Source: Amphibalanus amphitrite (Eukaryota > Arthropoda > Thecostraca > Balanomorpha > Balanidae). From it: a stretch of 64,000 nt of DNA. Positions 25,755 to 61,424 of the stretch are shown here, in pieces; within the stretch, counting starts at the first letter, position 1; each line of letters opens with the position of its first letter. The position numbers were made by a program, and so were the translations under genes. A model generated the notes under the pieces. The model did no database searches. It worked only from the letters and a program-made list of their open reading frames with translations, and was not told where the DNA came from. The stretch covers positions 124,001 to 188,000 of the forward strand of contig NW_024881838.1 in the NCBI RefSeq assembly GCF_019059575.1, in the 5' to 3' direction.

Positions 25755-28700
25755 GTGAGTTTGTAGGTACCAAGTCCTTGGTACACTCGGGGGCAGATTG
25801 ATGTTCCACCACTCCCTACCCATCGGGCTCCTATATATGGCTAAGCACTGGCTGCTGCCAGTGGCAGCACTGGCAGCACTGGCACTGGCAGGCAGTGCTG
25901 AGCAGTGCTGACGGCAGGCAACACTGGCAGCAGCCAGTGCTGAGCCATAGGAGCCCGATGGGTAGGGAGGGTTCTGCGACACCTGAGCGAGCGTCAGTTC
26001 AGCGAACGACATTTGAGCGAAGCCTTTTCAGCGATTATCAATTTAAGCGATTGACTTTTTCAGCGATTGTCAAGTCGGCGAATTCAATCACAGCGATTAT
26101 CAACTTAAGCGAGGACCAGAATCAGCGAAACCATATTGAGCGAATATATGGAGGTCAATGGGGGACCAATTGAGCGAACACAGTTACAGCGAAACCGAAC
26201 GCGACGGAAGTCAATCATTTGCTACTTTTCTGGAATTATTGCCCTTGGAATACCTGCTTGGTATGTGTCATGCTTCAAGCTGCGCGCGGCAAATTAAAAA
26301 TTTGCTTTTAAGCTTGGAAACCACAAAAAAATATCTGGCCTCATTCTGCAACCTTGATCTGGAAATGTGGAACGTGAGAGATAGGACGATGGAAGGAATG
26401 CCAAGGACCGATAATAAGCTCGAGGGATGGCACAGGGGGATCTAGTCTATGTTTCAGGGACCTCACCCAAATATCTGGAAATTAGTACGTTGCTTGGGGC
26501 AAGAACAAATTTTTCAACATGGGGAACTGATCCAAATTCAAGGGGGGAATTTCGCGAAAAACAGCACAAGCAATATGAATCTCTGAACAAACGTTTGGTC
26601 ATCATTATTGGCAAACAGCAGGGGGGGGGGGGGGGTGAAATCGAACCGCTGGAATTTTTGAGCAGTGTGGCATTAAATTTGGAGCTTAATGTCTGAACTT
26701 TGAACGTGACATCCGCCATCCAGTTCCGGATAACCATGGAAAGTTCCGGAAACATTTGTTGTACGTACGCTCGCAAAAGAAAAAAGAAAAAAGAAAAATA
26801 CACCGTTACGGGACAATGAAGTGTTTCGCTGAAATGAGAGTCGCTCAAACTGTAGTCGGCGAAAAAGATGTCGCTGAAATATAGCTTTCGCTTAAATTGA
26901 TAATCGCTATATTTGATAATCGATCAATTTGATATTCGCTAAGTTGCCAGTCGCTGAAAATGGTTCGCTCAAATGACGTTCGCTCAAATGACACTCGCTA
27001 AAGTCGCTCGCACCGGTAGGGAGTGGTGGAACATCAATCTGCCCCCGAGTGTACCAAGTAGGTACGGTCTTGCGAGATTAAGCGGTAGGTTTTGCACTTT
27101 TACATTTCCGGTTATATCTCAGAAACTAATCGATCTACGATGAAGCCATTTTACACGATCATGGCCGGCTTGTTACCCAACAAGTCGATCGCATCTTCAA
27201 CACTTACAAGCTTAAGACGACGAAGATATAGCCTGAAGTATAATTTTCTAGGTGCAAAACCTACCGCTAAAACCCGCGAGACCTGTACATATGTACAGTG
27301 GCCACTGGCCATGGACTATGGTGACAAGACAGTGAGTCACAACTAGCAACTATTTGGTGATTGCATTGATATCAGTTTTGATTACTCAGTCCACACCGTG
27401 GCCAGCTTTGTTTTATGTGTTTTCGTGTTTCAGGTTTCCCGCTGAGCTGATAAGGGTGCGCTCAGGGACGCTCGCCTTCTTGATGGTTGTGGGTTTCGTA
27501 GGGAATTTCCTGACATTGGTAGCCATCAAACGCACTCCTAGTCTGCATAATGCCACCACCGCATTCATCGCCAGGTAATAAGTGTGAATAACGCTCGCTG
27601 GGGGGGGGGGAGGGGGGGAGTGCTCCGTGCCATAGGGCATACCTTCCCAGTAACCCCATATCTATTGAATGGCTACCGGATATAGCTGCAGAACGTAGTG
27701 TTGCATTTCGTGCGTTACCGATTTGATGTTATACATATACATTATCTATCTGTCGCAGATAGTTTCGCTATATCTGCAGAGTTGTGTCGGCCTAACTGCA
27801 GCCATCTATAGCAGTCTGCCGTTGTACCTATGGCATGGAGTGGTGCTGTTTCAGTCTGGGTGTAGCAGATCTGATGTTCTGTGCGCTGGTCTTGCCATTG
27901 GATATTGTCCCCTTCTCCGAGAGCAGCTGGCTGAACGGCAACAGCGTCCTCTGCGTCATGCAGACCTTTCTCAAATATCTATCGGTGATGGGTTCGCTAT
28001 TCTCCATCAGCCTGGTAAGACTGCAGGGTCACAATTTACTGTACCTATATATGTGTAGGTAATGTCACAATAGCTTGCACAATTTTAAGACAAAAAAAGG
28101 ACTTTGCGTGTAATTATTTCGGCTTGAATTACACGGATTTGACAGTTCCACGGTGATGGAAGCCCGGCGTATACGCTAGTTGGTCTGGTCGATTATGTGT
28201 TAGATATAAGTACCTACATACCTACCTAAAGAGACCCGAATCCACTCGCGTGGCCGTCCATTGCAGGGTTATCGGGCAAAACGCACCCGTGCATTAAAAT
28301 GTCTGTTTACTATTTCATATTTGCATGCATTTTCAAGCAACCTTTAGTGTCATTTAGGGTCATTTTACCTTCAGTCAGGTAAAATGTAGCTTAATTTATC
28401 ATTAGGGGTATAGGTTGGTGCACATTGTAGCACCTTTACCTATTAACTATCCCAGAGCATTTACACTGTCTTTCGTTCTTTTTCAGATATCGTTAAACAG
28501 GTACGCATTTCTTCGATATCACCTTTTAGCGCTATCTCTAACCAGAAAGACGTTATAGATGAAGTCTCACTTTTATCTCCAGATAGGCTATACAGTAAGG
28601 TAGCCCATTGCCCAACGGTAGTTTTTAGAAGAGTGATTGTTCAATACCAATTGCAACATTTTTGTTCTGAGCAGGTCGAACAAGAGACATGGGAGTCCCT

Positions 28701-31700
28701 CATGTAGTTAAGTACTAGAGTTATAGTAAGTTAGGCATGCAAGATTTAGAACCTTCGTCTCGCGGTACAGCGAGAACGCAAAATGTAAATTCTTAGCATG
28801 TAGGTATAGGTGCCCCAGCCTTGCCACTCCGGGGAGGTATCCAATGCGCTGACTGCCCAGCGTCCGTCAGGTTTGTGTTGATCATCTGTCCTCCTGGCGT
28901 CTATCACCGGCTGTACCAGAGACGGTGGGTAGCGGCGCAGATCGCCGGCATCTGGAGCTTCAGTCTCGTCATGCTGACCCCCACCCTGGCCGGCGCCTGG
29001 GGTAAGCGCTTATGAGAACGCATGTATATTTGTTGCATTGCACACTGAAAGTTATGTTGACCAGCACCCACGCCTATGATAGGCTACAAAACTACATATA
29101 TCTGGGCCTCTGGCGAACTAGTCGATACGAGGCGAAAACGAATGGTAATGGATTATGAATGCGTGAATCAATATAGCAGTTTAGGATATGGGCGCTGACA
29201 CAGGATCCCAATTTTGAGCACTACAGCAGTGAAGTAAAAAGCATTACCTGCGTATCCTACGAAATGTGTGCACTTAACTTCAATGAGCACACCAGCCTAG
29301 CCTGACGGGGGCCGCGTGCGGGACAGGCCGGTTCGGCTACCTGCCGCGGCTGCGGTGCTGCGCCATCCTGCCGGTCAACGGTCGCTCTCCCAACGTCGCC
29401 CTCTTCATGATCACCTTCCTGGCGCCGTGTGCCGTCATCTCTGTCTGCTACCTGGCCATCCTGATCGCCGTGATGAGGTAAGGACTAAGGCACAGCCCGC
29501 GGTTACTGCAGTGAGAATGTAATCAGACGCTTTTGTCAAACAATTTGTCTAAAAAAATCACCATTCATTTCATCATTATTCATTCATTTCTTTGTTGTTT
29601 TATTTCTTTAGAGCTCACATGATATCATGTGCAGCCTGTTAGTTCCAGCTGTCTCCCTCGGTACCCACCAGCCCCCCCCCCATGTGGATGTCAGAGCGCC
29701 GCGTTTCCTTCCAAAGGTCGAACAGGCGGCAGCGGCAGTACTTAGCGCCACAAAACGGCGAGGTCAGCAGCCAGCACGCCCTACGCCAGCGACGCCACGA
29801 GGTGCGCGTCACCAGAATGTCCCTGGCCGTCTTCATGGCCTTCATCGTGTGCTTCACGCCGCTCACGATCATTAACATCTGGGACGTCGGCTTCAACCAC
29901 CCAGGTGACAGACAACCACCAGAGACGGCTAAACTTTATCTGTGACTTGACCGAACGGCGTACGGCTACAACCATACGGGTAACTTCCCCCGCATCCCGC
30001 AAGACCATTCAGCCGAGCGCACCCTGCCGGGTGGGGGGGGGGGGGTGGGGGGGATTCTGCACCTTGTCTAACTTCCGAATGTGACCTGTGACCTGCTAAG
30101 GCCGGTCATAAATTTGGCCTTAGCAGGTCACAGATCAGGTCAATGCCACGCCAAGAGTAAAAACTGCAGGTTCCTACATTACCAGCTTTGGATCTCAGTT
30201 GACGAATAATGGACTGAGCTGATTGATCATCTAAAAGCGTTTTTAGGCTACCATGACAACATGCATTCCAAATATTTTTTTTTGCGAATGTCAACGGTCC
30301 ATGTTAAGTCACGTCACCAAAGACGAACTATTGAATAGGATGTGAACGACACACATTTTCTGGATAATTTTACTCAAAGAACTCAGGGGTATGCTGAAGT
30401 AGTGATATGGATGGACCATATTTGGATAAAGTTTACATCAAAGTCAGGATAAGGACAGGGTTAGGTTCAGTATTGAAGTTCGGTATTGGCTGAGACAAAA
30501 AAAAAAATGTCTAGTGCTGATGCAGTTTTTTCTCGGCGAATCGAATTGTGCTGTATTTATTCCTTTACAAGGTCTCAGCCTCCCAATTTTTTTTTTATTT
30601 GTACCTTTGTGTCGTCGCGTCCTTAAAATTTGAGAAATAGTGCCTACATTTTTAACCGACTCCCCTTAAAAAATGGGATGTAGTTAAGTGCAGAGACTGC
30701 ACCTACCTCTCTAATATAATTTTGGTTTTTCGATAAACGGAACTTTTTTAATGCTACCAAAAAATCCATAATTAGAAAGTTTGAATAAAAGGCCAAAATT
30801 TTCTAAATAAGCTGTAGAGACATTTCAACTAAGAGGAAAATTTACGTGCATGCATTTCGTTACGTCTTGATTTATTAAAAACTGAATATGGTAGGTATAA
30901 AGGTGCGTTTGAAGTTTTGCAGTTTTGAAGCGGAAATGACATGACATGACGTTTTGATTTTCCTCAAACGTTTCGTCATTTTCCTCAAATTTCCCGACAG
31001 ATTTCGTTGAAAGTTTCAGGCAGCATGTCGAATTGAGGTAGGTATATGATAAGGCACTAAAAGACTGTCGGTGCCGGCTTGACTCGCCTAGAAGCCATTG
31101 GCGAGAAAGCGTGAGGGGAAGATTCTGCCAAACACCCCTACGGAGCGTGGTTAAATACGAATCACGGTGTTGGAGGTGAGCCCTGAGACGACGACTTACG
31201 GCTACCACTATTTTAACTTCTGGTATACTCGGAAAGTGGCAGCCCTGTGACTCGGATGGCCGGCGGCTACAACCGGCAATGTGACTGGCAATAAACATTA
31301 AGCAGACTCGACAGCTCACTGGCAGACCCAGGAAGGCGGTCTTCAACGCTGCGGAGGGCATACTCCCAAAAAGTTTCTCCAAATAACAAATACTCATCGG
31401 ATTTGAATTCCTCGCGCACTCTTGTGCAGTTTAAAACAAACTTTTCCTCATACAAGTTGTTTTGTTTTGGCTTTATTTTCGAAAAAAAACAAACAAACAA
31501 ATTTTTGTCGATTTCGGGCGCTGCGATGGGGGGGGGGGGAGGGGCAAGAGACATTTTCCCCAAATGCCCTCGCACTATCGGGGATCCCCCCTGGATTCCC
31601 CAGTGCGACAGCTGCAGTGTTAGGACTTCGAGGGTAGGTAGTGACAGCTAGCACAGTAGCAGGGTTCTTATGTGCGCCCATGTAGTGACTCGTGCTCGCA

Positions 31701-33533
31701 TTTCCAGTGTTGCACGTGGTCGGGTACGTGATAATGTGCGCCTCGAGCTCCATCAACCCCATCATCTACGTGGCGCTGAGCCAGCAGTACCGGCGTGCCT
31801 ACTGGTCATTGTTCAGCTGTGGAAAGCCGCGACGCGGCCCAGAGACCTCGTCAAACGGTGAGACACCAGTGTCGGTAACGAAAGCAAAGGCAGCCCGGGA
31901 CGCGACAGACTCGACTGCCAGCTTAGCTTGGGCGGTAACTCTATAAAAGATATGGTTAGTAAAGCCATTAAAAAGCCTTTTGGGACGACAACAAGGGAGC
32001 GAAACGGTGAGCCCTGCACGTGCAGAAGCGCAAGGGCCGATGGGTACTTCCAACTGACTTGTGCAGTGTGCACGGCACCCCTGGCCTCTAGCAGTGTGCC
32101 AATTTGGGCGCAATGGGCCCAGCCACTCTTGATATATGGGAGTGGCACCCTGCATGTGACCATGCGCAATCTGGGTCCCAACTAACTTTTGCACGGCACC
32201 CTATGCTAATTGCCGGTCCCTGGTCGTGTACCAATTTTGATTGCAATCGGCCCAGCCGTTCTTGAGATCTAGGAGCAGCCCCTGCATATGCGCACGTTGA
32301 CGTACATTAATCGTCAGTGACCGTCACCCACATATGTCGGTACTATTTCAAACAAACTACGGTTAATAATGAAATGGTTCGAAGAAGGAATGGAATACGG
32401 CCCGGCCACTCATATTCAGGATTGTTTGCTATCCTACGAAGGACTTCGCTCTCTTGTAATAAACACTTGAACGGGTGGTTTGAAAATGTCATAGGTGAGA
32501 GTGGGGCAAAGCGGCCACCCGGGGCAAAGCGGCCACCCATCGTTTTAGCCCTTCATAGCTGACGTCAGTTCCAATTTATGGTTTCCAATTATACTTCTCT
32601 TCACGGTCGTTCGAATGAGCCAGACCGGGGTTTCAGGCCCATCACCATTGTTCTGTGAAACACGGAAAAGCATTTCTTGCCAGTTTACCAACTATGTTTA
32701 CAATTTTTAAATGTTATGTTATTCCATAACCGTTTGAAATTTTTATAAGCGTTCTTGTCCATACATTGCATGATTATCGTACATGTATTCTACCAGTTTT
32801 AATGTTTTCTACCCCACTAATAGCTAAGCTGGAATATTTTTGTCTCGGACGGTATGCGCGGGGCAAAGTGGCCGGGGCAAAGTGGCCACCCCCCAATTGG
32901 CCATAAGTTGCTTCCATCTGGATAAAAAACATTATGTATATTCAAATGTGTCGTCATGCATTCATCTTGGGCACTTTTCAGTTGCATGAGTTACCAAATA
33001 ATGCAATTAAATGTTTATTTTCATGAAAATCCTTTCTTTGTTTACCTACAGGTGGAAGATGATAAAGTAAACATCCATCCTCGCTTAACCTTGTCACCAT
33101 CAAATACCCTATAGTCGTACACGAGGCAACTATTTTGTTTCTCATATCGGGACTTGAGAAGACGCCGGTGGCCACTTTGCCCCAGGGTATGGGGCAAAGT
33201 GGCCAATATGCATAGGTTTAAAGTTTTGTCAATATCTTTAATATGTGAACGCCTTTGTAAATAAAACGCAGTTGAAATAAAATGCAACTTAATAGGGATC
33301 ACATTGGTATAGAAAGAATCTTTCCAAGTTTTAAAATCAAGCGTTGGCATCGTGAGAAGCGTTAGGGTGGCCGCTTTGCCCCACTCTCCCCTACATTCAA
33401 ATAACGAAATTGATAACCGAATTGATAAAGGGCAAGTATATCGCTGCACCTAACCGAATCGCACATGTTTCTGATGTTTCTCAATGTTGCAGGCCCCGCA
33501 CTCACCTACGTCACCGGCCTCAGTCACCAATAA
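25711..33533 (+). CDS. Moody/Tre1-like GPCR, paralogue 1 (nine coding exons)
   Basis: Predicted seven-transmembrane receptor that would signal through heterotrimeric G proteins at the plasma membrane. Coding exons are 25711-25754, 27434-27574, 27855-28014, 28487-28500, 28871-29001, 29327-29477, 29672-29904, 31708-31857 and 33493-33533. They sum to 1,065 nt (354 residues) with consistent splice phases. Landmarks in order: N-glycosylation site NLT near the N-terminus; TM1 GFVGNFLTL; TM2 VADLMF; Cys in LCVMQTF before TM3; NRF replacing DRY; TM4 IAGIWSF; ECL2 Cys in CAILPVNG; TM6 CFTP; TM7 NPIIY; then a short basic helix 8 (QQYRRAYWSLF). The NR(F/Y) motif, the WGRFG...CAILP loop and NPIIY followed by QYRRAY are typical of the insect Moody/Tre1 group, known for blood-brain-barrier and germ-cell-migration roles. 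The ligand is unknown. A tandem paralogue lies at 36,416-59,809. Confidence 0.88.
25777..27058. mobile_element. TIR element K with AGCGA arrays, in intron 1 of paralogue 1
   Basis: A perfect 44-bp terminal inverted repeat starts CTTGGTACACTCGGGGGCAG. Inside the left arm AGCGA recurs at short, irregular spacing (25,980-26,200). The right arm carries the complement TCGCT at similar spacing (26,825-27,010). A 150-bp hairpin with GCAGTGCTG-type repeats lies at 25,818-25,970. TAGGTAC is found just outside both ends (25,764-25,770 and 27,059-27,065). The element starts 22 bases inside the intron. A diverged relative is at 57,852-58,000. No transposase recognised. Confidence 0.75.
27434..27574 (+). 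CDS. Paralogue 1 coding exon 2: TM1 and ICL1
   Basis: Acceptor TTTCAG|G, donor CCAG|GTAATA, 141 nt, phases 2 to 2. It encodes FPAELIRVRSGTLAF, then the TM1 core with the conserved Asn (GFVGNFLTLVAI), then KRTPSLHNATTAFIA. Paralogue 2 has the same length and borders. Confidence 0.9.
27855..28014 (+). CDS. Paralogue 1 coding exon 3: TM2, ECL1 and most of TM3
   Basis: Acceptor TGTTTCAG|T, donor CCTG|GTAAGA, 160 nt, ending in phase 0. It contains the TM2 Asp (SLGVADLMF) and the disulfide Cys (VLCVMQTF), and finishes at LFSISL just before the NRF motif. Confidence 0.9.
28487..28500 (+). CDS. Paralogue 1 coding exon 4: 14-nt microexon encoding ISLNR
   Basis: Flanked by TTTTTCAG| and |GTACGC. The 14 bases encode I-S-L-N plus two bases of Arg; the third base is the first G of the next exon. 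It carries the N-R of the N-R-F motif, the family equivalent of D-R-Y. An identically placed 14-nt exon with one silent change exists in paralogue 2. Skipping it would shift the frame. Confidence 0.88.
28871..29001 (+). CDS. Paralogue 1 coding exon 5: ICL2 and TM4
   Basis: Acceptor GTCAG|G, donor TGGG|GTAAGC, 131 nt. It encodes FVLIICPPGVYHRLYQRRW, then TM4 with Trp (AGIWSFSLVML) and the TPTLAGAWG boundary of ECL2. The intron before it is about 370 nt in this copy but 2.4 kb in paralogue 2. Confidence 0.9.
29327..29477 (+). CDS. Paralogue 1 coding exon 6: ECL2 and TM5
   Basis: The acceptor GGGACAG|GC has a poor pyrimidine tract but is the only nearby choice that keeps phase 1, and it is conserved in paralogue 2. 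Donor ATGAG|GTAAGG. It encodes RFGYLPRLRCCAILPVNG with the ECL2 Cys, then TM5 ending CYLAILIAVM. Confidence 0.85.
29672..29904 (+). CDS. Paralogue 1 coding exon 7: ICL3 and TM6
   Basis: The acceptor ACCCACCAG|C was chosen because it keeps phase without a stop; the stronger-looking TTTAG at 29,611 leads to TAG at 29,640. It encodes a basic ICL3 (ERRVSFQRSNRRQRQ) and TM6 with CFTP (MAFIVCFTPLTIINIW), ending at HP|G. It is 9 nt shorter than in paralogue 2, the difference being at the start of the loop. Confidence 0.8.
29905..31707 (+). other. Intron 7 of paralogue 1
   Basis: Contains a poly-G run (30,031-30,052) and the dispersed repeat shared with 16,450 (31,370-31,640). At 31,240-31,300 a segment is conserved with 59,205-59,265 of paralogue 2 (CTGTGACTCGGATG, GGCGGCTACAACCGGCAAT, TGGCAATAAAC). 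The conserved segment ends in AATAAA and may mark an intronic polyadenylation site, which would give a receptor lacking TM7. This is inference from conservation only. Confidence 0.45.
31708..31857 (+). CDS. Paralogue 1 coding exon 8: TM7 and helix 8
   Basis: Acceptor TTTCCAG|TG, donor AAACG|GTGAGA, 150 nt. It encodes LHVVGYVIMCASSSINPIIY, then a helix-8-like QQYRRAYWSLFSCGKPRR. If the donor is not used, the frame continues for 29 more codons to a stop at 31,944-31,946 (GETPVSVTKAKAARDATDS...). A very similar read-through tail exists in paralogue 2. Confidence 0.9.
32494..33391. mobile_element. TA-flanked GGGGAGAG-family element (GGGGCAAAGYGGCC variant) in intron 8
   Basis: Begins GGTGAGAGTGGGGCAAAGCG after TA (32,492-32,493) and ends with CCGCTTTGCCCCACTCTCCCC before TA (33,392-33,393). 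The word GGGGCAAAG(C/T)GGCC recurs at the left end (two copies), in the middle (32,858-32,890, two copies), at 33,170-33,205 (an inverted pair) and at the right end. No transposase. Paralogue 2's matching intron is only 224 nt and lacks it. Confidence 0.8.
33493..33533 (+). CDS. Paralogue 1 coding exon 9: C-terminal tail and stop
   Basis: Acceptor TTGCAG|GC. It encodes GPALTYVTGLSHQ followed by TAA at 33,531-33,533. AATAAA at 33,529-33,534 overlaps the stop codon; the same overlap exists in paralogue 2. Confidence 0.75.
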
Positions 33534-34359
33534 AGTAAACAGCCACGCCGTGGGTCTGGGTGGAGGGTCCGCCAGCGCGGGACCGTGAACATGTTCCGCT
33601 CGGCACAACCGGTCAGAGAAGTAACAGCGAATCGTCGTCTGGCCGCGAGGAAATACGAGTGATATAGTGACAGTGTCCAGTTTGTGCGGTCAGGGCCGGC
33701 AACGGATAATCCAGAAGAACCACGGAGACTGTTGTTTCTCGATCCGCTGCAATAGACTCATTTCATGTACAGATGCGGCACGTTAGCCCAGCAACACATT
33801 GGCGGGACAGATTAGACATGCTTGGGTCTTCTTGCTTTGTGTTGCATGCGCGGCGCGCGCTGTCATGCTTATTGTTTACACCATTTATAACATGAATTAT
33901 GATATCCATGATGTAGTAAATGTGTACGAAACAAACGTTGAAACGGATTAAGCGTGCACGAACTATAAGATGTCTGTCAGCCATGAAGACGCGATGTGAT
34001 CATGCCATAATGCACGTTTCGTCCGGCAAATCACCGAACCAGAAAGATGGGCATCGAATTCATATGTTGCATTGAAATCGATTTGCACCACACGTATGAG
34101 TGCTGAGCATGCTTGTACCCAACGTAAGCACCGGCTCTTTCAATTCTGAAGTCCCGTAAGTCGCACTGATTATTGAATGCTTTGGAAAAAAACCGTGAAC
34201 CGTGACGTTTCTAATTCGATCCCCGAGACATAGGTACTAACTGTTATTATTGTTTCTTTGAACGTTGTTGGTCAATCGAGTCATACAGTGACCTTCTCTT
34301 TGAAATGCTTATATGCTTCACGCCTGGAATACCTATTTCGCAGATGTTATTTCCTCATG
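33534..34359. other. 3' flank of paralogue 1 within the duplicated unit
   Basis: Homologous in patches to 59,810-60,300 and 61,430-61,740 of unit 2, for example AAGACGCGAT, ATGCACGTTTC, GCATACTTGTACCCAAC-like text and AATTCT(G/T)A(A/G)GTCCCGTA. It has no gene of its own. Probably 3' untranslated and intergenic DNA. Confidence 0.5.
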
Positions 34360-34367
34360 GGCACAAG

Positions 34368-34870
34368 CAGACTGGTGTTTGATTCATCTGTGATTGAATC
34401 GATTGGATTGAATCAAACAAAATTTGTTGAATCAAAAAGGTTTGATAAGATTCACCGTCAGGATTGTTTGATTCACAAGCCATGATTGAATCAAACGCAT
34501 TGGGAATCAGGGTTGATTGAATAAAAAAAAAAGATTCATGAACTTAAAAAAATTGAAGTGAACGAACATAGTTCATTATCAACAATATTAGCACTACTGC
34601 CATTACATGACAACAAAAAGAACACAACAAATACAATACTATCCCTGATATTTTGTATATTTTATTTTTTAATTGAATCAAAAAAGAATCATTAAGAAAA
34701 ATGGCTGAATCAAACGTGAATCATTCCTTTTATTGTTTTTTGATTCTCTGTATCAAAAGGAATCGATTCACCAAATTTTTTGAAGGAATCAAACGGTGAT
34801 TGAATCAAACAAAAATCAAATGAATCAACGATTGAATCGATCCAAAAAAGGTGAATCAAAAACCAGTCTG
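34368..34870. mobile_element. hAT-type MITE made of TGAATCAAAC words
   Basis: Ends CAGACTGGTGTTTGATTCA and the inverted TGAATCAAAAACCAGTCTG. The flanks GGCACAAG (34,360-34,367) and AGCACAAG (34,871-34,878) match at 7 of 8 bases, an 8-bp target duplication typical of hAT elements. The interior is dominated by TGAATCAAA and its complement, arranged as subterminal arrays. Unit 2 shows the uninterrupted site near 61,810. Confidence 0.8.
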
Positions 34871-34878
34871 AGCACAAG

Positions 34879-35251
34879 TTGGTTAAAATTTTGTCATTCA
34901 CTCCGCATCAAAGCTCTGATAAAATAAGAGTCCTATACCTATTTCAGCATGAAAACGCGAAAAGCAGACACCCCAGGGCATTATAGATCCCATTATTCTG
35001 CGTAATTAAATGCAAAACAAAGTCATTCAATGAGTAACTACTCCGCTGTTTACTGCGTAATTACTCCGCCGTTCAGCTGTTCATTTGGAATGCGTTTCCC
35101 GCTCAGCACTTTCAATTTAGATAAAGTACCGATTTTTTCCGCTATTATGCCTACGATAGCTATAACTCGCCAATCGCCATACTGTCTGCATTAGCCTTCC
35201 ATTCAATTGATAAAAAATGTTTTTGTTTCCTCGTATCTTTTATTTGTTTTG
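34879..35251. other. Duplicated flank preceding the TATA-containing block
   Basis: Aligns with 61,820-62,186 of unit 2 with moderate divergence (AAAATTTTGTCAT, AAAATAAGAG, ATTTCAGCAT, AAACGCGAAAA). No gene recognised. Confidence 0.5.
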
Positions 35252-35330
35252 TATAAATAATAAAATCTGGCCGGCCAGCGCCGTCGGCAATCGAGTGGGA
35301 TAGTCGTTCACTGTCGGCGCGGAGGTTGTC
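35252..35330 (+). promoter_or_regulatory. Candidate TATA promoter of paralogue 2, near-identical to 62,187-62,265
   Basis: Starts with TATAAATAATAAAATCTG and continues through GCCAGCGCCGTCGGCAATCG and GGATAGTCGTTCACTGTCGG. The same 79 bases occur at 62,187-62,265 with one difference that I can see (G versus T). Flanking duplicated sequence is clearly more diverged. The block lies directly upstream of the paralogue 2 leader exon, so a core-promoter role is the simplest reading, but no start site is mapped. Confidence 0.5.
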
Positions 35331-35356
35331 AGATTTGACCACGCTGTTGGCTGAAG

Positions 35357-36459: not shown

Positions 36460-39400
36460 GTGAGTACTGAGTAGTTCTGGGCCGCTGAGTAGCCATTATA
36501 TGTCAAGCCAGTGAGCCACTACGAGCAAATAGGGGAGAGCGGGGCCAGTTGAAACACGGGGTCAGATGAAACATGGCTTTATTTTCAACAGTATGCAACA
36601 TATTGCATTGCCGACACCACTGCGCATCTGCGCTCGACCACTTCCTTTGTCAACGGCGTTTGGGCGGCAAACGGACGGTAATTTTGATTTGACACTTGTT
36701 TTTGTGTTTTTGAGGGGCGTTTGGGAGAAATCGTTCTTATAAATATTTTGTGATATCTCATATACCTTTGTTGGCTGAAAGAAAAATTCCTGGCTCCGGA
36801 ATAACACCTTATTTGGCCCTTCATTCAGCATGATGCCGTCCCTCCAGCTCGTTTGACATGTGCTTTACGGCGCGTGCGAGATGGCGGGAGCGGATGGGGT
36901 CAATTGAAACGCTTCTCTGAGGGTCAGTTGAAACAGGGCCACAGGCCGTTTCAATGGACCCCGGTGACCTTTGCAATGGTTATTGTTCAGGGGCTGTAAA
37001 CATTAAAGGAAATAGTCCACCTTTGAAATGAGCTTTTAAACTGAAATAGTAGTTTAATAGAGCTCAATTTTTGACCCCTTTTTCTCCAGCTTTTGCTTGA
37101 AAGCCCACTATAGCCTGAGATATTTCTCATTTTTCTCATCCGCCCATTTTACCATAGTCTATGTACTTTATGTCACCTATTATGAGGAACTTAGCACTTT
37201 TAGCTCTCCAACGACCTACCCAGCCAGCCTTCCCAAATGGGGCCCATATGGGCTGAAAGTGGGGCATCTGGGCTTAAGTGGGCATGGGCTACATGTGGGC
37301 TATTATCTGGGCTAAATCTGGGTCCCATATGGGCTGAGCCCCAGCAAACATGCCCACATGGGTCCCATATGGGGTGAACATGGGCCAGATGGGCCCACGT
37401 GGGACATGGGCTACAGATGGGCTACCCACATGGGCCCCATATGGGATAAAAATGGGCCAAGTGGGCAAAACGCATGTGGGCTGGAGATGGGCATCCCATG
37501 TGGGTCCCATATAGGGCGAACATGGGCCAGATGGGCCCACGTGGGACATGGGCTACAGATGGGCTACCCATATGGGCCCCATAGGGGATAAAAATGGGCC
37601 AAGTGGGCCAAAGGCATGTGGGCTGGAGATGGGCATCCCATGTGGGTCCCATATGGGGTGAACATGGGCCAGATGGGCTCACGTGGGACATGGGCTACAG
37701 ATGGGCAACCCATATGGGCCCCATATGGGATAAAAATGGGCCAGGTGGGCCAAACGCATGTGGGCTGGAGATGGGCATCCCATGTGGGTCCCATATGGGG
37801 TAAACATGGGCCAGATGGGCCCAGTGGGACATGGGCTATAGATGGGCTACCCATATGGGCCCCATGTGAGATAAAAATGGGCCAGGTGGGCCAAACGCAT
37901 GTGGGCTGGAGATGGGCATCCCATGTGGGTCCCAGATGGGCCCACGTGGGACATGGGCTATAGATGGGCTACCCATATGGGCCCCATAAGGGATAAAAAT
38001 GAGCCAGGTGGGCCAAACGCATGTGGGCTGGAGATGGGCGTCCCATGTGGGTCCCATATGCGGTGAACCGGGCCAGATGGGCCCACGTGGGACATGGGCT
38101 ACAGATGGGCTACCCATATGGGCCCCATATGGAATAAAAATGGGCCAGGTGGGCCAAACGCATGTGGGCTGGAGATGGGCATCCCATGTGGGTCCCATAT
38201 GGGGTGAACATGGGCCAGATGGGTTCACGTGGGACATGGGCTACAGATGGGCTACCCATATGGGCCCCATATGGGATAAAAATGGGCCAGGTGGGCCAAA
38301 CGCATGTGGGCTGGAGATGGGCATCCCATGTGGGTCCCATATGGGGTGAACATGGGCCAGATGGGCCCACGTGGGACATGGGCTACAGATGGGCTACCCA
38401 TATGGGCCCCATATGGGAAAAATGGGCCAGGTGGGCCAAACGCATGTGGGCTGGAGATGGGCATCCCATGTGGGTCCCATATGGATCACCCATGTAGGCC
38501 CCATTTAAGTTACTCCAAGAGCATAAAAGCAAAAAAGGTGACTGTTGTTCATGTGAATTTTGGACTCCAAGTACATCAAGTTCATACATGATGCCATATG
38601 GGGTCAATGTAGGCTGGCCCATATGGGTCCCTGATGTGGGGGCCGCGGGGGTCTCATATGGGGCCTACGTGGGCTTGCCCATATGGGTCCCATGTGTCAC
38701 CCACTGCTATTCCCATGTGGGGCCCATATGGAAGAGGTGGGGGGCCATGTGGGCCCCATATGGGAACCATGTGGGCATGTTTGCTGGGATATGGACATTT
38801 CCTTTACTACAAAATGTTGGTATCTGACCCGACACCTATCTGGGCTGGATCCCAGCAAACATGCCCACATGGGTCTCATATGGGGTGAACATGGGCCAGA
38901 TGGGCCCACGTGGGACATGGGCTACAGATGGGCTACCCATATGGGCCCCATATGGGATAAAAATGAGACAGATGGGCCAAACGCATGTGGGCTGGAGATG
39001 GGCATCCCATGTGGGTCCCATATGGGGTGAACATGGGCCAGATGGGCCCACGTGGGACATGGGCTACAGATGGGCTACCCATATGGGTCCTATGTGGGCG
39101 CCGCGTGGGTCCCATATGGGGCCTACGTGGGCTGGCCCATATGGGTCCCACGTGTCACCCACTGCCATTCCCATGTGGGGCCCATATGGAAGAGGTGGGG
39201 GGCCCATGTGGGCCCCATATGGGAACCATGTGGGCATGTTTGCTGGGATGCGGGCGCCATGTGGGCAAACTGGACATCAACAAGCTGGGCACACCCAGCC
39301 GGGGCCCACATGGGGCCCGGCCGCCCACATGGACAAAATTTACTACAAAACTTTGTTAACTGACCCGACACCTAGGTATCTGGGCTGGATGCGGGCAGCA

Positions 39401-42400
39401 TGTGGGCAAACTGGACACCAACACGCTGGGCACACCCAGCCGGGGCCCACATGGGGCCCAGCCGCCCACATGGGCAAAATTTACTACAAAACTTTGTTAA
39501 CTGACCCGACACCTATCTGGCCTGGATGCGGGCAGCATGTGGGCAGACTGGGCACCAACAAGCTGGGCACACCCATCCGGGGCCCACATGGGCAAAAGTT
39601 ACTACAAAACTAATTGTTAACTGACCCGACACCTACCAATCTGCAATAAACATTTCCTTTATTACAAAATTTTGTTAACTGACCCGGCACTTATCTGGGC
39701 TGGATGCGGGCAGCATGTGGGCAAACTGGGCACCAACAAGCTGGGCACACCCATCCGGGGCCCACATGGGGCCCAAATGGGCAAACTTTACTACACTTTG
39801 TTAACTGACCCGACACCTATCTGGGCTGGATGCGGGCAGCATGTGGGCAGACTGGGCACCAACAAGCTGGGCACACCCATCCGGGGCCCACATGGGGCCC
39901 AAATGGGCAAACCTTACTACAAAACTTTGTTAACTGACCCGACACCTATCTGGGCTGGATGCGGGCAGCATGTGGGCAGACTGGGCACCAACAAACTGGG
40001 CACACCCATCCGGGGCCCACGTGGGGCCCAAATGGGCAAACCCCAGCCAGCATGCCCATGTGGGCCCCACATGGGCAGTTGATGGGCATGGTGGGCTAGG
40101 TGGGCCATGGGCTAGAGATGGGCAAATATGTGGGCTGCATGTGGGCCCCACATGGGCTGCCCACATATTTTTTGGCAGGTATAATGCTTGATAATGAGAT
40201 TGCTTGCACATGTACGAGGGCATATCCAGGAATTTTGGTGAACACAGGCATTCACGCGGTGTTCCTGTATGGTGGGCTTAACATGGGCACTGCGTGGGCA
40301 GCCCATGTAGTGGGGTGTAGGTGGGCTGGATGTGGGCAGCCCATTATTTATTTTTTCACTGTCCAATGTGTATGATATTACAAGAAAAAAGAACTCGCTG
40401 TTTAGTCTCATGCCTCCAAAATACACTTCGACGTCGTGAGGAAGTCGCATAGTTGATGGTTGTGAGACCAGCTACGGCTGATATTGGACAGTCAATGTTG
40501 TGATTGTGTCGTATGATTGTGTCGCCTGAGCCCGCCCCTGCGCGGGCGACCCGCCGGCGGAGCTCGGCCCACCGGACGGGGCCTGGGGCCGCCTCTGCAC
40601 CGCCCGGGGCGGTGACCGGCCGACCGGCTGGCGGGGCTGCGGCGTCTGGGCGGGCCAGTTGGCGTTGAGACTCTGAGTGGTGTGCGTGTCCAATAAAGCC
40701 TTAATTCGGGCAGAACCGACACATGGCGCGGTCGGTATTAGCTCGAACCCGCCCATAGTGAGTACAAAGTGCGATTAACGAAAGTGAAAGGAAGCAGGAA
40801 TGCGTAGCCGTGGCGGCCGCGCCGCAACCACGACCGCGTTCGAGTCTCTTCGGAGAGGCGCGCCCGCAGCGACGCCAGCTGTATCGCTAGTTGGTCGAGT
40901 CGCAGCTGTGACATCAGGACGCTGGACGTAGTCGTCCCATCTCTCCTTCCAGAGGTAGAAGGCGTCACTGCGGTCGGTGGAGATGTCCAGTCGGTCAGGC
41001 CGGATCGGCTGCAGGCTCGTCATACCACAGCGATTACGAAGGACTGTTCTAGAAGCCCTCCACGCCAGCCACCTGGGGAAGGAGAAAACGAAGGCCCGCG
41101 CAAGACAGATCGTCTACTGGCCCGGGATCTACCGGGATGTGGAAAATGTCACCCGCTGCTGTACCAGCTGCCAGAGAGATCTACTCGCTCAGCAGCAAGA
41201 GACCATGATGAGGAGACCGCCAGCGGAAAGGCCGTTCGAACTACACATCGACTTTGCCGATCACGCCGGCAGGAAGTACCTCGTGGCAGTGGACAGATAC
41301 TCCGGGTGGCTGTTTGTCGCCGACCTCGGTGTAAGCGCCCCCGCTTACACCGGTCCGAAGGACGATAGCAGGCGTCATGACGAGCGCACTCGCTACGCGA
41401 CTTAGCGTAAATGGACGGCACGGGAAAAGGGCTTTCGGCGGTACCCGGCTTTTTGATGTCGTGTTCAGTAAGTAATGGTTTTATCTCTTTATTTAATTGC
41501 CCAACTCCCTTGGACACCTGATAGCGGATGTCAGAATAACAGCAGCACTCCCATTCATATGTTTTTTTTTCAGGTGTCGTCAATTACTGTCCGATTAGCG
41601 AATTCCAAGCAGCCGACTTATAAAGCACTAATGTCTTTTGTGTCCATCATAATCGGACCTTGTATGTTTATTCTGCATCAGATTATTTCCTGCAAAAAAA
41701 ATATCTTAAGTTCATTTCTCAATTAATTCAAGTCAAATCAGATGATGTTACTTTTAATGCAGGTAATACAGAATCATGGTAGAACACAGCACGGGCAATA
41801 CACAATTCGCTTATGTGTCTGCACCTTTTACATTGCTGGTGCTTATTTTACAGGAGCCGTGCGGCGGAACGGGCTTACCCAGGACACCAACAACGGCCAG
41901 CTGGAGGTGGCGCCACGAAAGTGGTTTACGGGTGCCAGGAACCGCGACGGAGGCCGCCAGGAGAGGACACCAGCTGGAGTTTAAGCGGAGGAGCATGGAT
42001 GAGAGAAGAAGTCTAGAGATAAACAGAAGAGAGGAGAGAGTTTAAACCAAGATTCTTGGTTTAAACAGCATTTTTGTGTTTATCGATAATATAAATATTG
42101 ATCACTGACAGTTTGTTTTGTTGCGGTGGCGAACGTTCAGCAATGATCAGGGGGAGTGATTGAAATAGCAGACATCGATTATATTATAATCATATTGAAA
42201 TTAATTGTAGGTTCTGGTGGGAACTAAGATGGGCTTTGGTGAATATTTATTGATTAATACAAACGATGCTAGGGAGGTGACGTGAGCCAGCATGGGGCCC
42301 ACCTAGGGCCCACATCTGCTGGCCCACGTGGACCCCATATGGTACCCACCTTGAGCCCATGTGGGCCACATATGGTGCCCATCTTGAGCCCATGTGGGCC

Positions 42401-45400
42401 CCATATGGTACCCACCTTGAGCCCACGTGGGCCAGCCCAGGTGGGCCCCACCATTTACCCAGGGACAAATTTATGTGGGCCCCACATGGGCTGCCCACAT
42501 GGGTCCCACCAAGTGGCCCACCTGGGCCCCATGTGGGGCCAAGGTAATAATGTTGGCTGGGTATGGGTCCCAGCTGGGTCCCATTTCGAACCCACATGGG
42601 CTCCAGGTGGGATTTTTCGCTTATACCCATTTGGGTCCCGGCTGGGAAAGCCCATATGGGACCCGGCTGGGCCCCATATGGGTCCAATGTCGAACGCACA
42701 TGGCCCCATGTGGGATTTTTCGCTTATACCCATGTGGGTCCCGGCTGGGAAAGCCCATGTGGGACCCATATGTGCCCCGGCTGGACCCCATTTGGGTCCC
42801 ATTTCGAACCCACATGGGCCCCATGTGGGATTTTTCGCTTATATCCATGTGGGTCCCGGCTGGGAAAGCCCATGTGGGACCCATATGTGCCCCGGCTGGG
42901 CCCCATATGGGTCCCATTTCGAACCCACATGAGCCCCATGTGGGATTTTTCGCTTATACCCATGTGGGTCCCGGCTGGGAAAGCCCATGTGGGACCCATA
43001 TGTGCCCCGGCTGGGCCCCATATGGGGCCATCTGGGCTGCCCATATGGGACCCAGTTGGACGCCCATGACAAACACATCTGGGCCCCAAGTGGGCAGCCC
43101 AGATGGGCCCCAGTTTGCTGCCCACTTGGGGCCCATATGGGCCCCATTTGGGAAGGCTGGCTGGGTATTGAATGTAGCATTTGGAAAAGTAAACCGGACA
43201 AAATATCTCCTTAAGAAAGTGGCCTTAAAGAGGAAAACATCCCATTGTTAAGGATAGGTGCAATTGACCCCATGGGCTGGTTCAATTGACCCTCGCATCG
43301 GGGTCATTTGAAACGGGCGTAGAGCTGTTTTCTAAGCATGCGTTTGGCAGCAAAATATGTTTGAAACATAATTTTACATATCTTAAAATAAAGCCAAAAG
43401 AGCATATTTTTTCATGGCATTGTGCATTTTTCGATATGACAACTAGATCTCGCTGTGCATGTCAATATATAAAAAGTGGTTCAACTGGCCCCGCTCTCCC
43501 CTACCTATTTAACTCGCAGTGATAGTAGAGCGATGCAAATACCTTACGTTTAGCCTCTGGGGGTTAAATCGTTGACCCTAAGTCAAATCTGAGGACAGTC
43601 TACACAGAAAGCTAGCGTTAAAAAGGCTATCGATTGCGCTTTTCCGTGACGCTAGCTATAGCCTATAGGTTGTATGAGTTATGTTATATTCGACGTTTAT
43701 CTGAAGGTTATGTTCATGTTGCTTTATGTTTATGGTGTATATCTGATTATGTTATAAGAGATGGTGCCTAGTAGTGATGTCAATCGGATACCAACATTTT
43801 GGTATACCGATACCAAACCGATACCAACTTGGTATTTGGTATTTCAATCCTAATATGTTTGGTATTTTGTTGGTATTATAAACCCTCACTAACCCGCGCC
43901 CTGGTGGGGTCTGTTTATAACGCGACCTGGTGGGGGGGGCTATTTTTTGCCCCCCTCGTATCTCCGAAACTACTGGACGGATCCGCAAAATTCAAACGGC
44001 GTTCGAAAGGCCTGTCAAATTTGTCGAGGGAAACCAAATTTCATTGACCTCGGGGTCACCGATGACGTCACAGGTCAGGTCAAAGATGAAATGTTTCACC
44101 GTTCACGGGGCTTCTAGGGAATGCGCTATAACACCGAGGAAAACGCATTTTGTCAAGAATCAGCGATAGGGCGTCAGTTGCCTAGTAGATATGTTGCTAT
44201 TAGAGGTCACTGACAATACCAGGTCACGTCACAGGTCAGGTCACCAAGGGTCACAGGTCAGGTCACTGAGCCCAACTTCACTAAGGTTGTGTAATGCATG
44301 TTTTATGGCCAATTTTTCATTTCCAACTCAATGGTGTTGGTTATAAGACTATCAGGTACGGCTTAGGTCACTTTCTGGTGAAGTTCAGGTCAAGGTCAGG
44401 TCAAGGTCAGGCCAAAAAAGGTCAAATTTTAAAGTTGATAGTTTTGCATAAAATGGGTATTGATTCGATGCGGCTCGTCACGGGGAGTCTAATGGTGGTC
44501 TTTGTTTTGCGCTACGTGGTCTAGAATTGCTAAAAATTGAGTTTGAAAATTTGATGTCATCAATTTTTAACAGTTTTTTCGCTATAACTTCGCCAAAAAA
44601 AGAGGTATCAATCTCAAATTTGGTATGTGGATGTAAGGTGGTATGGACTATCACATATATTCCGGTTTTTGCGAAATTCAAAAAACTTTTTGGATTTTTA
44701 GATCATTATATCCAAAAAAATTGATTTTTTGATTTTTGGGGGTCAAAATCCAAAAATTTCAAAAATCCGAGATAGCAGTTTTGTAGCCCTGTTAATTCTA
44801 CAGCTTTTATGTCCGTATCATTTTTCTGTATTTGCAAAGCTATAGGCCTGAGGACAGCTCTTCCCGTGAAACCCTTTTTTGGGTCGAAAACGGCAGAACA
44901 TGACGTCACTCTGACGTCATTTCCGGCCAACCTATCATAGCCTTTGGAATTTTTTTTTGTCACCATATGTAAAATTGATGTCCGGGAGGGTACTGAAAGT
45001 TTGGTGACGATCGGCGCAGCGGTTCTGGAGATATATCGAAAAGTCTGGAGGGGGGGCAAAAAATAGCCCCCCCCACGGTTCGTCGGAAGGTCATCTCAGG
45101 CTCAAAAGAAACGATATATACCATTCGAAAGCTGAATCCAAAAATGTAATTTTTATCAAAATCGATCGATGGCCTTTTTTGAAAATTGCGTTTTTGTAAA
45201 AACTTAATAATCTTTTATTCAACGGGCTGTCCCGGACATTCTTGAAAACATAAAAAATATATTTTTGAGTTCCAGTGAAAGCTGAACGCCAAAAGAACAA
45301 TATTTAGCGAAACAATATTTCCAAACATTAATATGCGTCTCCCACAGCCGACAATAAGGCGCAATCACACAGTTCAGTGTCACGATGGACCAAAGTCAGC

Positions 45401-48400
45401 CACAAAAAAGCGCGAAATGACCCTTATCGATTCACAGACCCGGCGCTCTCGGCCCGCCTGACCGGCCACGGAAAGAACGTTCGGCTCTCGTTCTAATAAA
45501 CAAATGTCATATTTGTCAGTTTAACTGTCCACATCGCTATAAAAGTTATTCAGGATACCTGTGAAGAAAATTCATTGTTCTGTCATCTTCACATCATGCA
45601 TTAATTTGCATTTGTTCATGTCTGCTTTGCTCAATTGAGCTTGGTATCATGCCCATATAAGGAAAATTGGCCGCGCTGAAATGTCAGAGGTTGCACCGGC
45701 CTCAGCTCGGGTGGAGTGGGGGTAGCGCCCGGCGGGGCAGGGTAACCTTTGACCGGTCGCACGGCCGAGCAGCTGTCACCAGTACAGCCTCTGACAGTGA
45801 AACCCCGCTCACTTCCCCTGCGCGGGCACTGATCGCAGCTGGATGGAACAAAACATGTATAAGAAAAATGTAAATTAAAGAACGTTGTAAATGAAGCAGA
45901 ACAATGAATTTTCTTCACAGGTATCCTGAATAACTTTAATAGCGATGTGGACAGTTAAACTGACAAATTCAACACTTGTTTAACAGGACGAGACTCGAAC
46001 GTTTCTTCCGTGGCCGGTCAGGCGGGCCGAGAGCGCCGGGTCTGCGAGTCGATAAGGGTCATTTCACGCTTCTTTGTGGCTGACTTTGGTCCATCGTGAC
46101 ACTGAGCTGTGTGATTGCGCCTTATTGTCGGCTGTGGGAGACGCATATTAATGTTTGGAAATATTGCTTCGCTAAATATTGTTCTTTTGGCGTTCAGCTT
46201 TCACTGGAACTCAAAAATTACATGTTTATGTTTTCAAGAATGTCCGGGACAGCCCGTTGAATAAAATATTATTAAGTTTTTACAAAAACGCAATTTTCAA
46301 AAAAGGCCATCGATCGATTTTGATAAAAAATACATATTTGGATTCAGCTCACCGTCAGCTTTCGAATGGTATATACCGTTTCTTTTGAGCCTGAGATGAC
46401 CTTCCGACGAACCGTGCCCCCCACCAGGTCGCGGGCTAATGTACAAGAGGCTGAGAAATTGGCAGTGGTTTCCGCATGCGATAGGATGAGAGATAAACGA
46501 TAAACGATAATTATCGCTGTTAATAAAGGGACTATCCCACCTTCGAAAAAATCCCGTTTAGGATTCGGAAATGTTACTTAGGGCGTTGTGACGAATTCTG
46601 CAAGTTTTTACGCGTTTTCATTGTATACTTTTTGAAATATTGCGACTTTTATATTTCATCGTGACGTCATTTAGATCGGATCTGTGACGTAATGAAGGAT
46701 TTACTTCATGCCAATGAAGGGGGAAATTTGGCAGCAAATATATATGCTTTCAAATACGACGCGGCTCATACAATAACAAAAGTGTCTCTGATTGGGCATT
46801 TTGTGGTTGGTGGTATGATAGTCAAATGTAAGTATGTTTGACTTCCTGCATGTAAAATTCAAATACTAACATCACAATTCACATAGGAAAAGAACATATT
46901 TTCACCATAACTTAAAAAATTTGTGTCAATTTGGAATGCAATTGAAGTGAACAAGTGTGAAATTTGAATGAAAATAACCAACATTCCTGACCTAACCTTA
47001 CCTACTTTCCTAAAAAGTTTGTAATACCCTTAATACCAACTTAAAACCCCCATGCCAGATGTCTACAACATACAAACCTTTCAACCAGACTACTACAGTA
47101 ACACCTCACAACCTATTCCATTCTGAACCTATTGATTGGGATTTTTGTATACCTACTTTTACTCATTGCATCCTAGCTTGCTATTATAGCAAACATGCAG
47201 GTATTTAAAGAAATGTTTTGTTTTTCCTTCTTAGCTGTTGAAATTTCTTGAATGCCAACACAACACAACACACCATGCGCACATGACAGAGGTCTCCGTC
47301 ACTGCGGAAGGAAGATCGCAATGCTGCTTGCAGGCTGTTGACAGAAAGTGATCAGTAAGTTATGACCCTATGCATAATGCTACAATTATTTTTTTTTGTA
47401 TGCAGGTAGTTGGTCAGAGATTGAACATGTCTCAGCATCATATATTTGAATGCTGATAATTATGTATACGAGCATTGACCAATCAATTGAAACTAGAAAA
47501 GTAGATAAAAGCTTAACAAAATGGATTGGTGAAGATTAGATTGCCTATATAAAGCATGCAATGTTGACTACATAACATACTGCATAAAATGTAGTCTGTT
47601 CCAATGTTTGCGCCTATGGTCAAAGCTGCTTCTTCAATTTGCTTCTTCGTTCAATGTAGGGATGTAGCCAAGGGGGTGGCCACGGGTGTCATGGTCTCCC
47701 CCAAAGGCGAGAAATTAAATAAAATAAAATAAAGATAAATAAAAACAGCTGTACCATACCCCTAAAAATAGTGGGCCAAATCTGAGTTTTCCTTTTTTGG
47801 AGGGGGTACGACACTAGGCCGCGACCCGTGGCCCCTCCCTCAGTAAAATCTTGGCTATGGCTCAATAATTTGAGTCTATGCTTTATGTCTATGACTATTC
47901 TATACAGGAGCTATGCAATCCTGTTTTCTTTCTAGGTTCATGCTGTTCTGAGGTGAAACATTTTCCTGGCATGGTGGCACTTTGTCAGTGTGGGGCGAGG
48001 TAGGCATCCACTGTGATGTGGCTGACCCTGTCGGCTCCCACTCCCCCTCTGACCCGGCCATGCGTCCCGCCAGGTTGTCGTGTTCCGCCAGCTGCTGCGC
48101 CGGGGTTGGCAGCGCACAGCCGCTACCAGCTGACACGCCGACCGGTGCGCGGCGCGCGTGCGCCGGGCGCCGACGGCCGTCGTCTGGCAGCAACAGCGCT
48201 GCCAGTGACTCGCGCTGCTGCTGCAGAAACTGGGCAAGGATCGTAGAATCCTGGCGTGTTTTTGTAACGTCCATTAGAGTGATTTAGACGCAGCGTGTAG
48301 AAAGGACTCGTTTATTGACGTGTGACTTTCTGACAGCTCAGTCACCTGTTGACGGCGGCGCACAGCGTCACCTACCCGCCCTACAGCCGCCCAGCAGGGT

Positions 48401-51400: not shown

Positions 51401-54400
51401 GCCCAGTGGTTATGTCACAGCACAATGTTGTATAACCTGCTATTCAAGAACACTTAAATCTTGAAAAACCTGTAGCTCTCTTTTGTCGCCTCACTTTTCG
51501 CACTCTTGACAAATCAGTCGGATCAAGACTGAAACTTGAAGAGGATAAGGTCTTTTGTGGGATGTACTTGCAGTTTCAATTCAATGACATAAATTACTCG
51601 AAATTACCATTGAAATTGTACTGTACCATGACGAATCTACCATTGAAAGAAAATTGTATCATATTCATGACCCTGCTATAAAAACTGAAACTGAAACAAG
51701 CTCCAATTGCATATGATAAATTTGGCGATGTTTATAAATCTTGCTGCCTTAGACAAGCAAATCTTCAATTTGTTTCCATTTCAGGAAATGGAAACAAATT
51801 GAAAAAAAATAAAACAAACGGTAAATTTATCCAAACCCAAGTCCAAACCCAAGATAATCAATCAATTACTCTGGGTGCCGCCGGGGCGCCGAGTCAGCCA
51901 ACGCCAGCTTATTCGTAAATCAAGTGATACTCTACTCGAATGCGTAAGAGGCGTTCAAAGGGCAAATGACGTCATCAGAATGCCGTTAATGGTTAAGAGA
52001 TTGGGCCTTGTACAAGGCCCATTTTCAAATGAAGGGAACGAATTTCTTCAACACCACGAGGCCGCGGGGGTTGCAACCTAGATAGATAGTGGTTTCTGAA
52101 CCTCGCCGCAAACTTGGCTATCTCAACTCAAATTTAATGTAAAGGTGGGATAGTCCCTTTAAGTAAATCAGTTATCGTTATCGTTTATCGCTAATTTTTC
52201 AAAATTATCGCTCATCCACTTATCGCAAGTTACAAAAATTATGAACGATAAACGATAAAATGTAAAACGGGATGATGGAAAAATGGAAGACGATCGACAG
52301 TGTCGTCGTCTGTCTGTACTGTCGATAGACTGTATAAAGATAGACTGACGATAAAGCACTGTCGATCGACTGTCGGCGATGTCGATCGTTGCATATATGC
52401 CGCGCGACAGTATGTGTGCGCATTGCGCAACCTGTTGCCATCTGCTAAGTGTACAGATCTGTCAGACGGCTGACGGGTGGTATAAAATTTGCGCACCGGG
52501 CAGAGGTCAGTCACAAGGGGGGGGGTCCACTACCGCATATCTGGGGGATTGAACAAGTACATATATAAATGAACTTGCTCGAGAAAGTCAAACTCAGCAT
52601 AAAAAACTACGCCACCTTGGCTCAGGTTTCCGTCTTTGTACACTTTAAGTACACTTATTTAAGCTGTATTTATCGCTTTTGTTATCGCATTTAAAAACAA
52701 TTATCGTTATCGTTTTATCGTTTATCGTTTCGTTATCGCTGTTAAAAAACACTTATCGTTATCGTTTTATCGCTTTATCGCTATCGCTGTTAATTTTTTG
52801 AATATTTTTATCGTTTATCGTTTATCGTTATCGCAAACCTTTCTTATCGTTTTATCGTTATCGCAGGTCCGAAAATTAGTTATTGCGTAAAGCACGGGAA
52901 ATTGGTAAAAATTTGGTAGTTGCCTCATGTTCCTAGGTTGGTCCGGTTCCTCATTTCCTCACGGTTGTGGTCGGTATTTGGTTTGGTATCGGTATTCCGA
53001 TTTTCTGTAATTGACATCACTAGTGCCTAGAGTCAAGCACACTGTGCTTTTGCACCACTCTTATATCATTTTGCTTTATCTTTCTTATTCATGCTCATTT
53101 TCCGATCGTTTTACTAGGTTGTCGATGCGCAATAAACATTAACTGGAATGAAAAAAAGGTATATTGGTTCCGCAGTTACATATACACCGGTTTGTTGAAA
53201 AAAATATTGAAAAAAACAATTTTGACCTTTGATGACCTCTAGTGACCTCACCTAAAATGTGGCCGACGTATTCTCGTCATGAGTTTTTTTTTACACTTTT
53301 TCGATTGCCGCTTACCGCGTGTCGCTACGTGATCCAGGAGCCAAGTTAGAGCTTTGCCTGCGGTGCGCCCAGGTGCGCCGTTTTTAGCTATAGTGCGGCA
53401 AAAAGTGGGGGCGTTTAACGCCTCTCCCGAGCAGCTCGCCGGTTACTGGGTGACACCAATTGACATTTTTATTCCTCACCGTGATCAACTTTGTTTTATG
53501 ATTAAGTATCGTGTTGATTTATCATTTATCTAATTTGTTTATCGTGTTCCAGGTTTCCTACTGAAATGATATGGGTGCGCTCAGTCCTAATCGCCTTCTT
53601 CATGGCTGTGGGTCTGGCAGGAAATTTCCTGACATTGGTAGCCATCAAACGCACTCCCAGTCTGCATAATGCCACCACCGCATTCATCGCCAGGTAAGAG
53701 GTGTGAAAAACGCTCACTGAGGGACACCAGAATTCCGAGGAACACCGCACCACTCCGTCATCTTTGACTGCCGGTTATATTTATAGGTATATTGCAATTT
53801 ACAGTGCTGCATTTCGTGTATGGCCGATTTGATGTTCTACATTATCTGTGGAGATAAAGTTTCGTGTATCATATGTGGCACTGGGTCGGTCTGATTGCAG
53901 CCGATCTGTAAGCAGCCCATGCCGTTGTATAGCATGCTGTGATGCTGTTTCAGCCTGGGTGTAGCAGATCTGATGTTCTGTGCGCTGGTCATGCCACCGG
54001 AGATTGTCCTGTTCTCCGAGAACACGTGGCTGAATGGCAACAGCATTCTCTGCGTCCTGCAGACTTTTCTTGAATATCTGTCGGTGGCGGGTTCGCTGTT
54101 CTCCATCAGCCTGGTGAGACCATGGGGTCAGGGGAGTGTAATCATGCAAACTGGCACAATTTCAAAACAAAATGATAAATATTTAATGTGTAAAATTACT
54201 TCGGTTTGCATTGTCGCTTCATACACGCTCGACGGTCACCAGCTCGAGAGGTGTGTTAGCGTGCGTGACCTTGGCATCATCTTAGATAGCAAGCTTAACT
54301 TCGCAGACCATGTTGACGCTATAGTCTCGAAGTCGAACCGCATGCTGGGCTTGCTGATGAGGAGCATGCAGGTCTCGACACGGGTGCATCGAGCGCAGTT

Positions 54401-61420: not shown

Positions 61421-61424
61421 GGGG

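Follow-up and report, generated by a model that had tools for sequence, protein, structure and literature searches.

How does DNA that has the look of a satellite come to lie between the ends of a transposon? The question is raised by a 64,000-nucleotide stretch of the Amphibalanus amphitrite genome (NW_024881838.1, positions 124,001 to 188,000 of the forward strand; hereafter the window), in which a 5,947-bp element, spanning 37219-43165, consists mostly of tandem repeats. We conclude that this element is very probably a non-autonomous cut-and-paste transposon of the animal CACTA-related type (TRC/EnSpm, with CCC ends and a 2-3-bp duplication), and we trace its principal array to a smaller element nested within it.

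An initial annotation of the window had described the array as bounded by perfect 35-bp terminal inverted repeats and a pair of TA dinucleotides, with an empty site available in the same DNA, and all of this is borne out. The left (37219-37253, forward strand) and right (43131-43165, reverse strand) terminal inverted repeats are perfect inverted matches of one another, and a TA is read at each border of the element, at 37217-37218 and 43166-43167. The paralogous empty target site lies on the reverse strand at 20685-21238; in a self-comparison of the window the right flank (43166-43504) is 99.1% identical to 20685-21024 and the left flank (37003-37218) is 95.4% identical to 21023-21238, both in inverted orientation, with the junction TA at 21023-21024. 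The empty site reads CCAACGACCTATTGAATG, in which TA is present once, while the end of the window copy reads CCCAGCCAGCC, so that the CCC start of the terminal inverted repeat is present.

Searching the 807.55-Mb host assembly for the exact 16-base end, as the annotation had proposed, gave 140 occurrences against 1 for a reversed-pattern control; the element exists in many copies. Among the 100 of these 140 ends that were listed there are 27 convergent pairs no more than 11 kb apart, besides that of the window, and 20 of the 27 were fetched, all chosen by the same end as the window copy. The 21 copies thus assembled, the window copy included, we call family A. They range in length from 1.7 to 9.5 kb, and the left terminal module (37219-37339, forward strand) differs by only 0-2 mismatches in 121 bp between the window copy and the 20 others. 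A core without arrays (40044-42290, forward strand), which includes a fragment of a long terminal repeat (LTR) retrotransposon, recurs in 18 of the 20 other copies with 0.5-2.3% substitutions relative to the window copy; about 400 bp of it are missing in two of these 18 (L023 and L026), and the whole core is missing in L012 and L028. Compared in pairs, the cores of 19 copies diverge by 0.14-2.65%, with a median of 1.27%. Because their cores differ so little from that of the window copy, the copies read are, judged by their substitutions, young; as selecting by exact ends leaves older copies under-represented, the term is limited to the copies read. Several copies contain stretches of 0.4-4 kb common to no or few others, and L028 contains an insert resembling a long interspersed nuclear element, with reverse transcriptase and endonuclease domains. 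We also observed that L012, a 1,673-bp copy flanked by a TC duplication, has intact ends and, between them, almost nothing but 142- and 115-bp arrays. The LTR-retrotransposon fragment, for its part, extends over about 40500-42060 (bounds set by eye), is present at least partly in 18 of the 20 other copies and retains the remnant of an Integrase_H2C2 zinc-binding domain at 41022-41177 (forward strand; PF17921, E=2.4e-18).

The remainder of the element is occupied by repeats called by Tandem Repeats Finder, all on the forward strand: a 142-bp array of about 8 units (37359-38484), a 126-141-bp array (39246-40042), a 33-bp repeat of 3.4 copies (42322-42433) and a 115-bp array (called at 42651-43026 and mapped to 42575-43026). 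The palindrome CCCANNTGGG occurs 96 times within the element and not once across the remaining 58 kb of the window, compared with a mean of 1.2 and a maximum of 5 in Markov-1 resamples of the element, and its most frequent spacing is 11 bp (22 of 95 intervals). The three main array units had been said to share the vocabulary of the tips, as if terminal sequence had been amplified into the interior. The shared motifs stand, but alignment of the units to the two tips on both strands is weak (scores of 24-46 in 12 comparisons, of which 10 exceed their own shuffled maximum of 28-33 and two do not). Amplification of the element's own tips into the 142-bp array was accordingly rejected, the unit being that of the interior of a different element.

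This second element, which we term B-type, is nested in the first at 37340-38788; it has CCCAGCAAAC ends, its borders carry no duplication, and the 142-bp array is its interior in expanded form. Its terminal sequence, CCCAGCAAACATGCCCACATGG, starts at position 122 of the outer element, is found there exactly in 18 of the 21 A copies and is matched without mismatch at 344 places in the genome (control, 0). Twenty short B loci were fetched; at two of them (L071 and L077) the sequence turned out to be the left end of a larger element, and these two were not counted in the solo set. The 18 solo B elements are 386-489 bp long, with CCCAGCAAAC ends of the CCC type and duplications of 2 bp in 17 cases and 3 bp in one; one of them (L063) already contains an internal repeat, 60 of 60 bases being identical at an offset of 144 bases. 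L071 and L077 belong to CCCAGCAAAC-ended elements of 5,935 bp, with an AA duplication, and 3,132 bp, with a GA duplication; in each of them about 0.9 kb is 95% identical to sequence of the window element, and the 5,935-bp one also shares the B module at 94%. These copies show the 142-bp array to have grown out of the interior of an older element of about 400 bp, CCCAGCAAAC-ended and nested, and not, as had been supposed, out of terminal sequence. A second B element, this one solo, is inserted in the window copy at 38851-39247 (397 bp, with an AT duplication); its site is uninterrupted in 14 of the 20 other copies and in one more with a substitution, and the remaining five are not shown there.

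The 142-bp array is far from constant in length. A comparison of copies, also called for by the annotation, gave about 4 to 22 units per A copy within the size range stated above, except for the 1.9 units of L028, a copy broken up by inserts; a few matches from other parts of the element are counted in these figures. Since core divergence among the copies read is 0.1-2.7%, substitutions provide a clock by which to gauge how the array changes: L015 and L016 are 0.64% apart in their cores and 7.8 units apart in their arrays, while L013 and L022, at 0.14%, have an equal number of units. The idea that array length tracks core relatedness was not upheld, the correlation being weak (r=0.35, with 103 of 2000 permutations as high). 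The element inserted as a unit with a short duplication, and the length of its array varies between near-identical copies.

The duplications bear on what kind of element this is. In the 21 A copies they are 2 bp long in 16 (CA three times; TA, TT, TC, AA and AT twice each; CC, AG and AC once each) and 3 bp long in four (TAA, TCA, ATT and TTA), whereas moving the boundary outward by 1-8 bp, as a control, leaves at most 4 of 21 copies with 2 bp or more. An element of the Tc1/mariner type, inserting at TA, is what the window copy would suggest on its own, flanked as it is by TA at either border and with just one TA in its empty site. That explanation is, in our judgement, hardly credible and was rejected, as the duplications are not TA at every insertion: TA is found in just two of 21 A copies and two of 18 solo B copies, the other insertions having CA, AA, TT, TC, AT, CC, AG, AC, CT or 3 bp, except for an A copy that has none at all. 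The TA duplication, which the annotation had pointed out, turns out to be incidental, given that 20 of the 21 copies carry 2- or 3-bp duplications of varied sequence; TA is just one of the many sequences duplicated, and these data exclude an element specific for TA. ISL2EU and Mirage are superfamilies with 2-bp duplications, and a non-autonomous element of such another superfamily is a rival that we regard as unlikely. It draws its force from the fact that the CACTA assignment is based on ends, duplication length and subterminal repeats and not on an identified mobilising transposase. It is opposed by the mixture of 2- and 3-bp duplications, by the presence in the A. amphitrite genome of CACTA-like transposase frames that are multi-copy and open, and by the ends themselves: CCCAGCC matches the published end of the Hydra CACTA/TRC element EnSpm-4N1_HM, or Spongebob (CCCAGCCAACATTGAC; PMC4298943), and CCCAG that of an Aedes TRC element (CCCAGTCAAC; PMC1636069). 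CCCAGC ends together with varied 2-3-bp duplications fit the animal CACTA relatives, TRC/EnSpm.

A third rival holds that a true satellite was caught between inverted ends by chance, or that an unrelated element inserted into satellite DNA, and large tandem arrays of several periods are indeed what a satellite would offer. An exact 24-base word of the 142-bp unit has 640 sites in the genome (control, 0), and 100 of these, on the first contigs, were listed and assigned by comparison with the listed A and B ends. Seventy-six of them fall in eight A-type elements (for two of these, only a single exact end is among those listed). A further 23 fall in 14 solo B elements and one falls in a larger CCCAGCAAAC element; none of the 100, all in assembled DNA, falls outside such elements. 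Among the best 30 matches to the 142-bp unit, several of which come from one element, an A end lies within 2.5-3.1 kb in 28, and the other two are on contigs with listed A ends. With these assignments, and with an identical layout found at other places, each copy having its own duplication, a chance satellite is very improbable. The proposal of a route from DNA transposon to dispersed satellite accordingly survives in part: the array is dispersed with a mobile element of many copies, but no free satellite occurs among the 100 listed sites.

Several observations weigh against the assignment to a CACTA-type transposon. Forty-four of the 100 listed ends of family A lack an exact partner over a distance of 11 kb, which means that some members of the family are broken or diverged, or are interrupted where a contig stops; no duplication flanks copy L024; and the binding of protein to the CCCANNTGGG palindromes is predicted only. 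The remaining points concern the transposase. A profile search of the genome with PF02992 gave nothing at E<=0.001, as it also did in 14 control genomes, and two weak matches at E<=10, the better with E 0.07. One of these two is a 785-amino-acid open frame (L081; C136:943677-946031), which has a C2H2 zinc finger and, in this order, matches to PF02992 (E=0.0013) and PF13960 (E=0.0053), both below the curated cut-offs. As query this frame found 73 matching stretches in the genome (itself and 72 others; 57 of 178 candidates were scored), none of which lies near the A ends (100 listed of 140) or the B ends (100 listed of 344); where a contig is shared, the smallest distance is about 390 kb.

PF02992 followed by PF13960 is nevertheless the domain order of CACTA transposases. 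Many of the matching stretches lie in stop-free frames of 777-917 amino acids, with groups of near-equal score at 783 and 844, and these multi-copy 783- and 844-amino-acid frames are possibly young autonomous families. An autonomous relative with the same ends, which the annotation had suggested looking for, was not found: the open CACTA-like frames lie elsewhere in the genome, away from the ends listed, and no transposase was found encoded within 37219-43165. The 785-amino-acid frame was itself considered as the autonomous partner and rejected, its 3.3-kb locus being without a CCCAG[CT] word and its flanks without an inverted match; compared with the PDB it gave zinc-finger chains only (16 matches listed).

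The relatives to which the window element is assigned are described in the literature as follows. TRC elements are animal CACTA relatives that have a Transposase_21 domain, CCC ends and 2-bp duplications, the last seen in 7 of 14 copies of SmTRC1 (PMC1636069). The TRC/EnSpm elements, among them SmTRC1, the Aedes and Tribolium TRCs and Hydra Spongebob, share with the window element the CCC ends, a 2-bp duplication and the existence of non-autonomous copies, and SmTRC1 also has an internal tandem-repeat region. The window element, on the other hand, has no transposase inside, is mostly tandem repeat and shows some 3-bp duplications, and its ends are not of the same sequence past CCCAGCC. Jozin, a CACTA element of Chenopodium quinoa, has captured a 171-bp satellite as a multi-kb array (PMC8978399); it resembles the window element in type, in the position of such an array near one end and in chromosome-wide dispersal, and differs in being from a plant, in having a Transposase_21 domain and in the sequence of its single array. 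Also published is a satellite that originated from the gene of a CACTA transposase (PMC7320549). Tetris and DAIBAM of Drosophila virilis are, like A and B, a non-autonomous element and a miniature inverted-repeat transposable element (MITE) with a common last part of the ends and variable internal repeats, but Tetris is a foldback element whose repeats also occur in long satellite-like arrays, none of which were seen here. MITE-linked satellites, including miDNA4 and Xstir of Xenopus, have been reviewed (PMC9659126); these resemble the B element in that tandem repeats are tied to a MITE, although miDNA4 is listed there as Tc1-mariner and in the present case the small expanded element lies within a larger transposon. 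Satellite arrays borne by CACTA elements and MITEs are thus already published, and the window element is a well-resolved new case, with merit in the fine time scale it offers and in an array that can be traced to a nested element. Among the results listed from open-licence PubMed Central literature we found no paper on this family, and a comparison of the end words with those papers matched only CCCATATGGG among the matches listed, in contexts unrelated by title; families A and B may already be catalogued in Repbase.

Three other features of the window were observed. A 1,343-bp near-palindrome at 45074-46416 is 85% identical to its own reverse complement, has CACGGTTCGTCGGAAGG ends and looks like a foldback type; open frames at 53943-54506 and 58747-59253 resemble, by eye, pieces of G-protein-coupled receptors; and 27407-35336 and 53525-62270 have collinear pieces in common, at 72-97% identity.

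In plant CACTA elements, palindrome-forming subterminal repeats serve a transposon-encoded binding protein (PMC2613891), and repeated subterminal motifs in direct and inverted order, a feature documented for plant CACTA, are present in the element described here. For Tetris it has been suggested that more repeats raise the efficiency of transposition through extra binding sites (PMC4079207). We propose that a CACTA-like transposase from elsewhere in the genome would act in trans on the ends of the element, with the CCCANNTGGG palindromes serving as putative subterminal binding sites, as in the plant elements. Unequal exchange between units would alter the length of the array, and transposition would then carry the current array of each lineage to new places. 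A further idea, put forward tentatively since we think it somewhat doubtful, is that the palindromes, often about one helical turn apart, may bind the mobilising protein and that the arrays may be retained and extended since transposition gains from additional sites. If this were true, the 'satellite' would be an amplified transposon control region, handed from a small element to the larger one that swallowed it. The window copy also carries a warning, that a lone TA duplication is no proof of a mariner element. The steps from a small transposon to a dispersed tandem array are visible within one genome: solo elements of about 400 bp hold a short repeat in their interior, the nested copy has about 4-22 units, and the outer element spreads that array.

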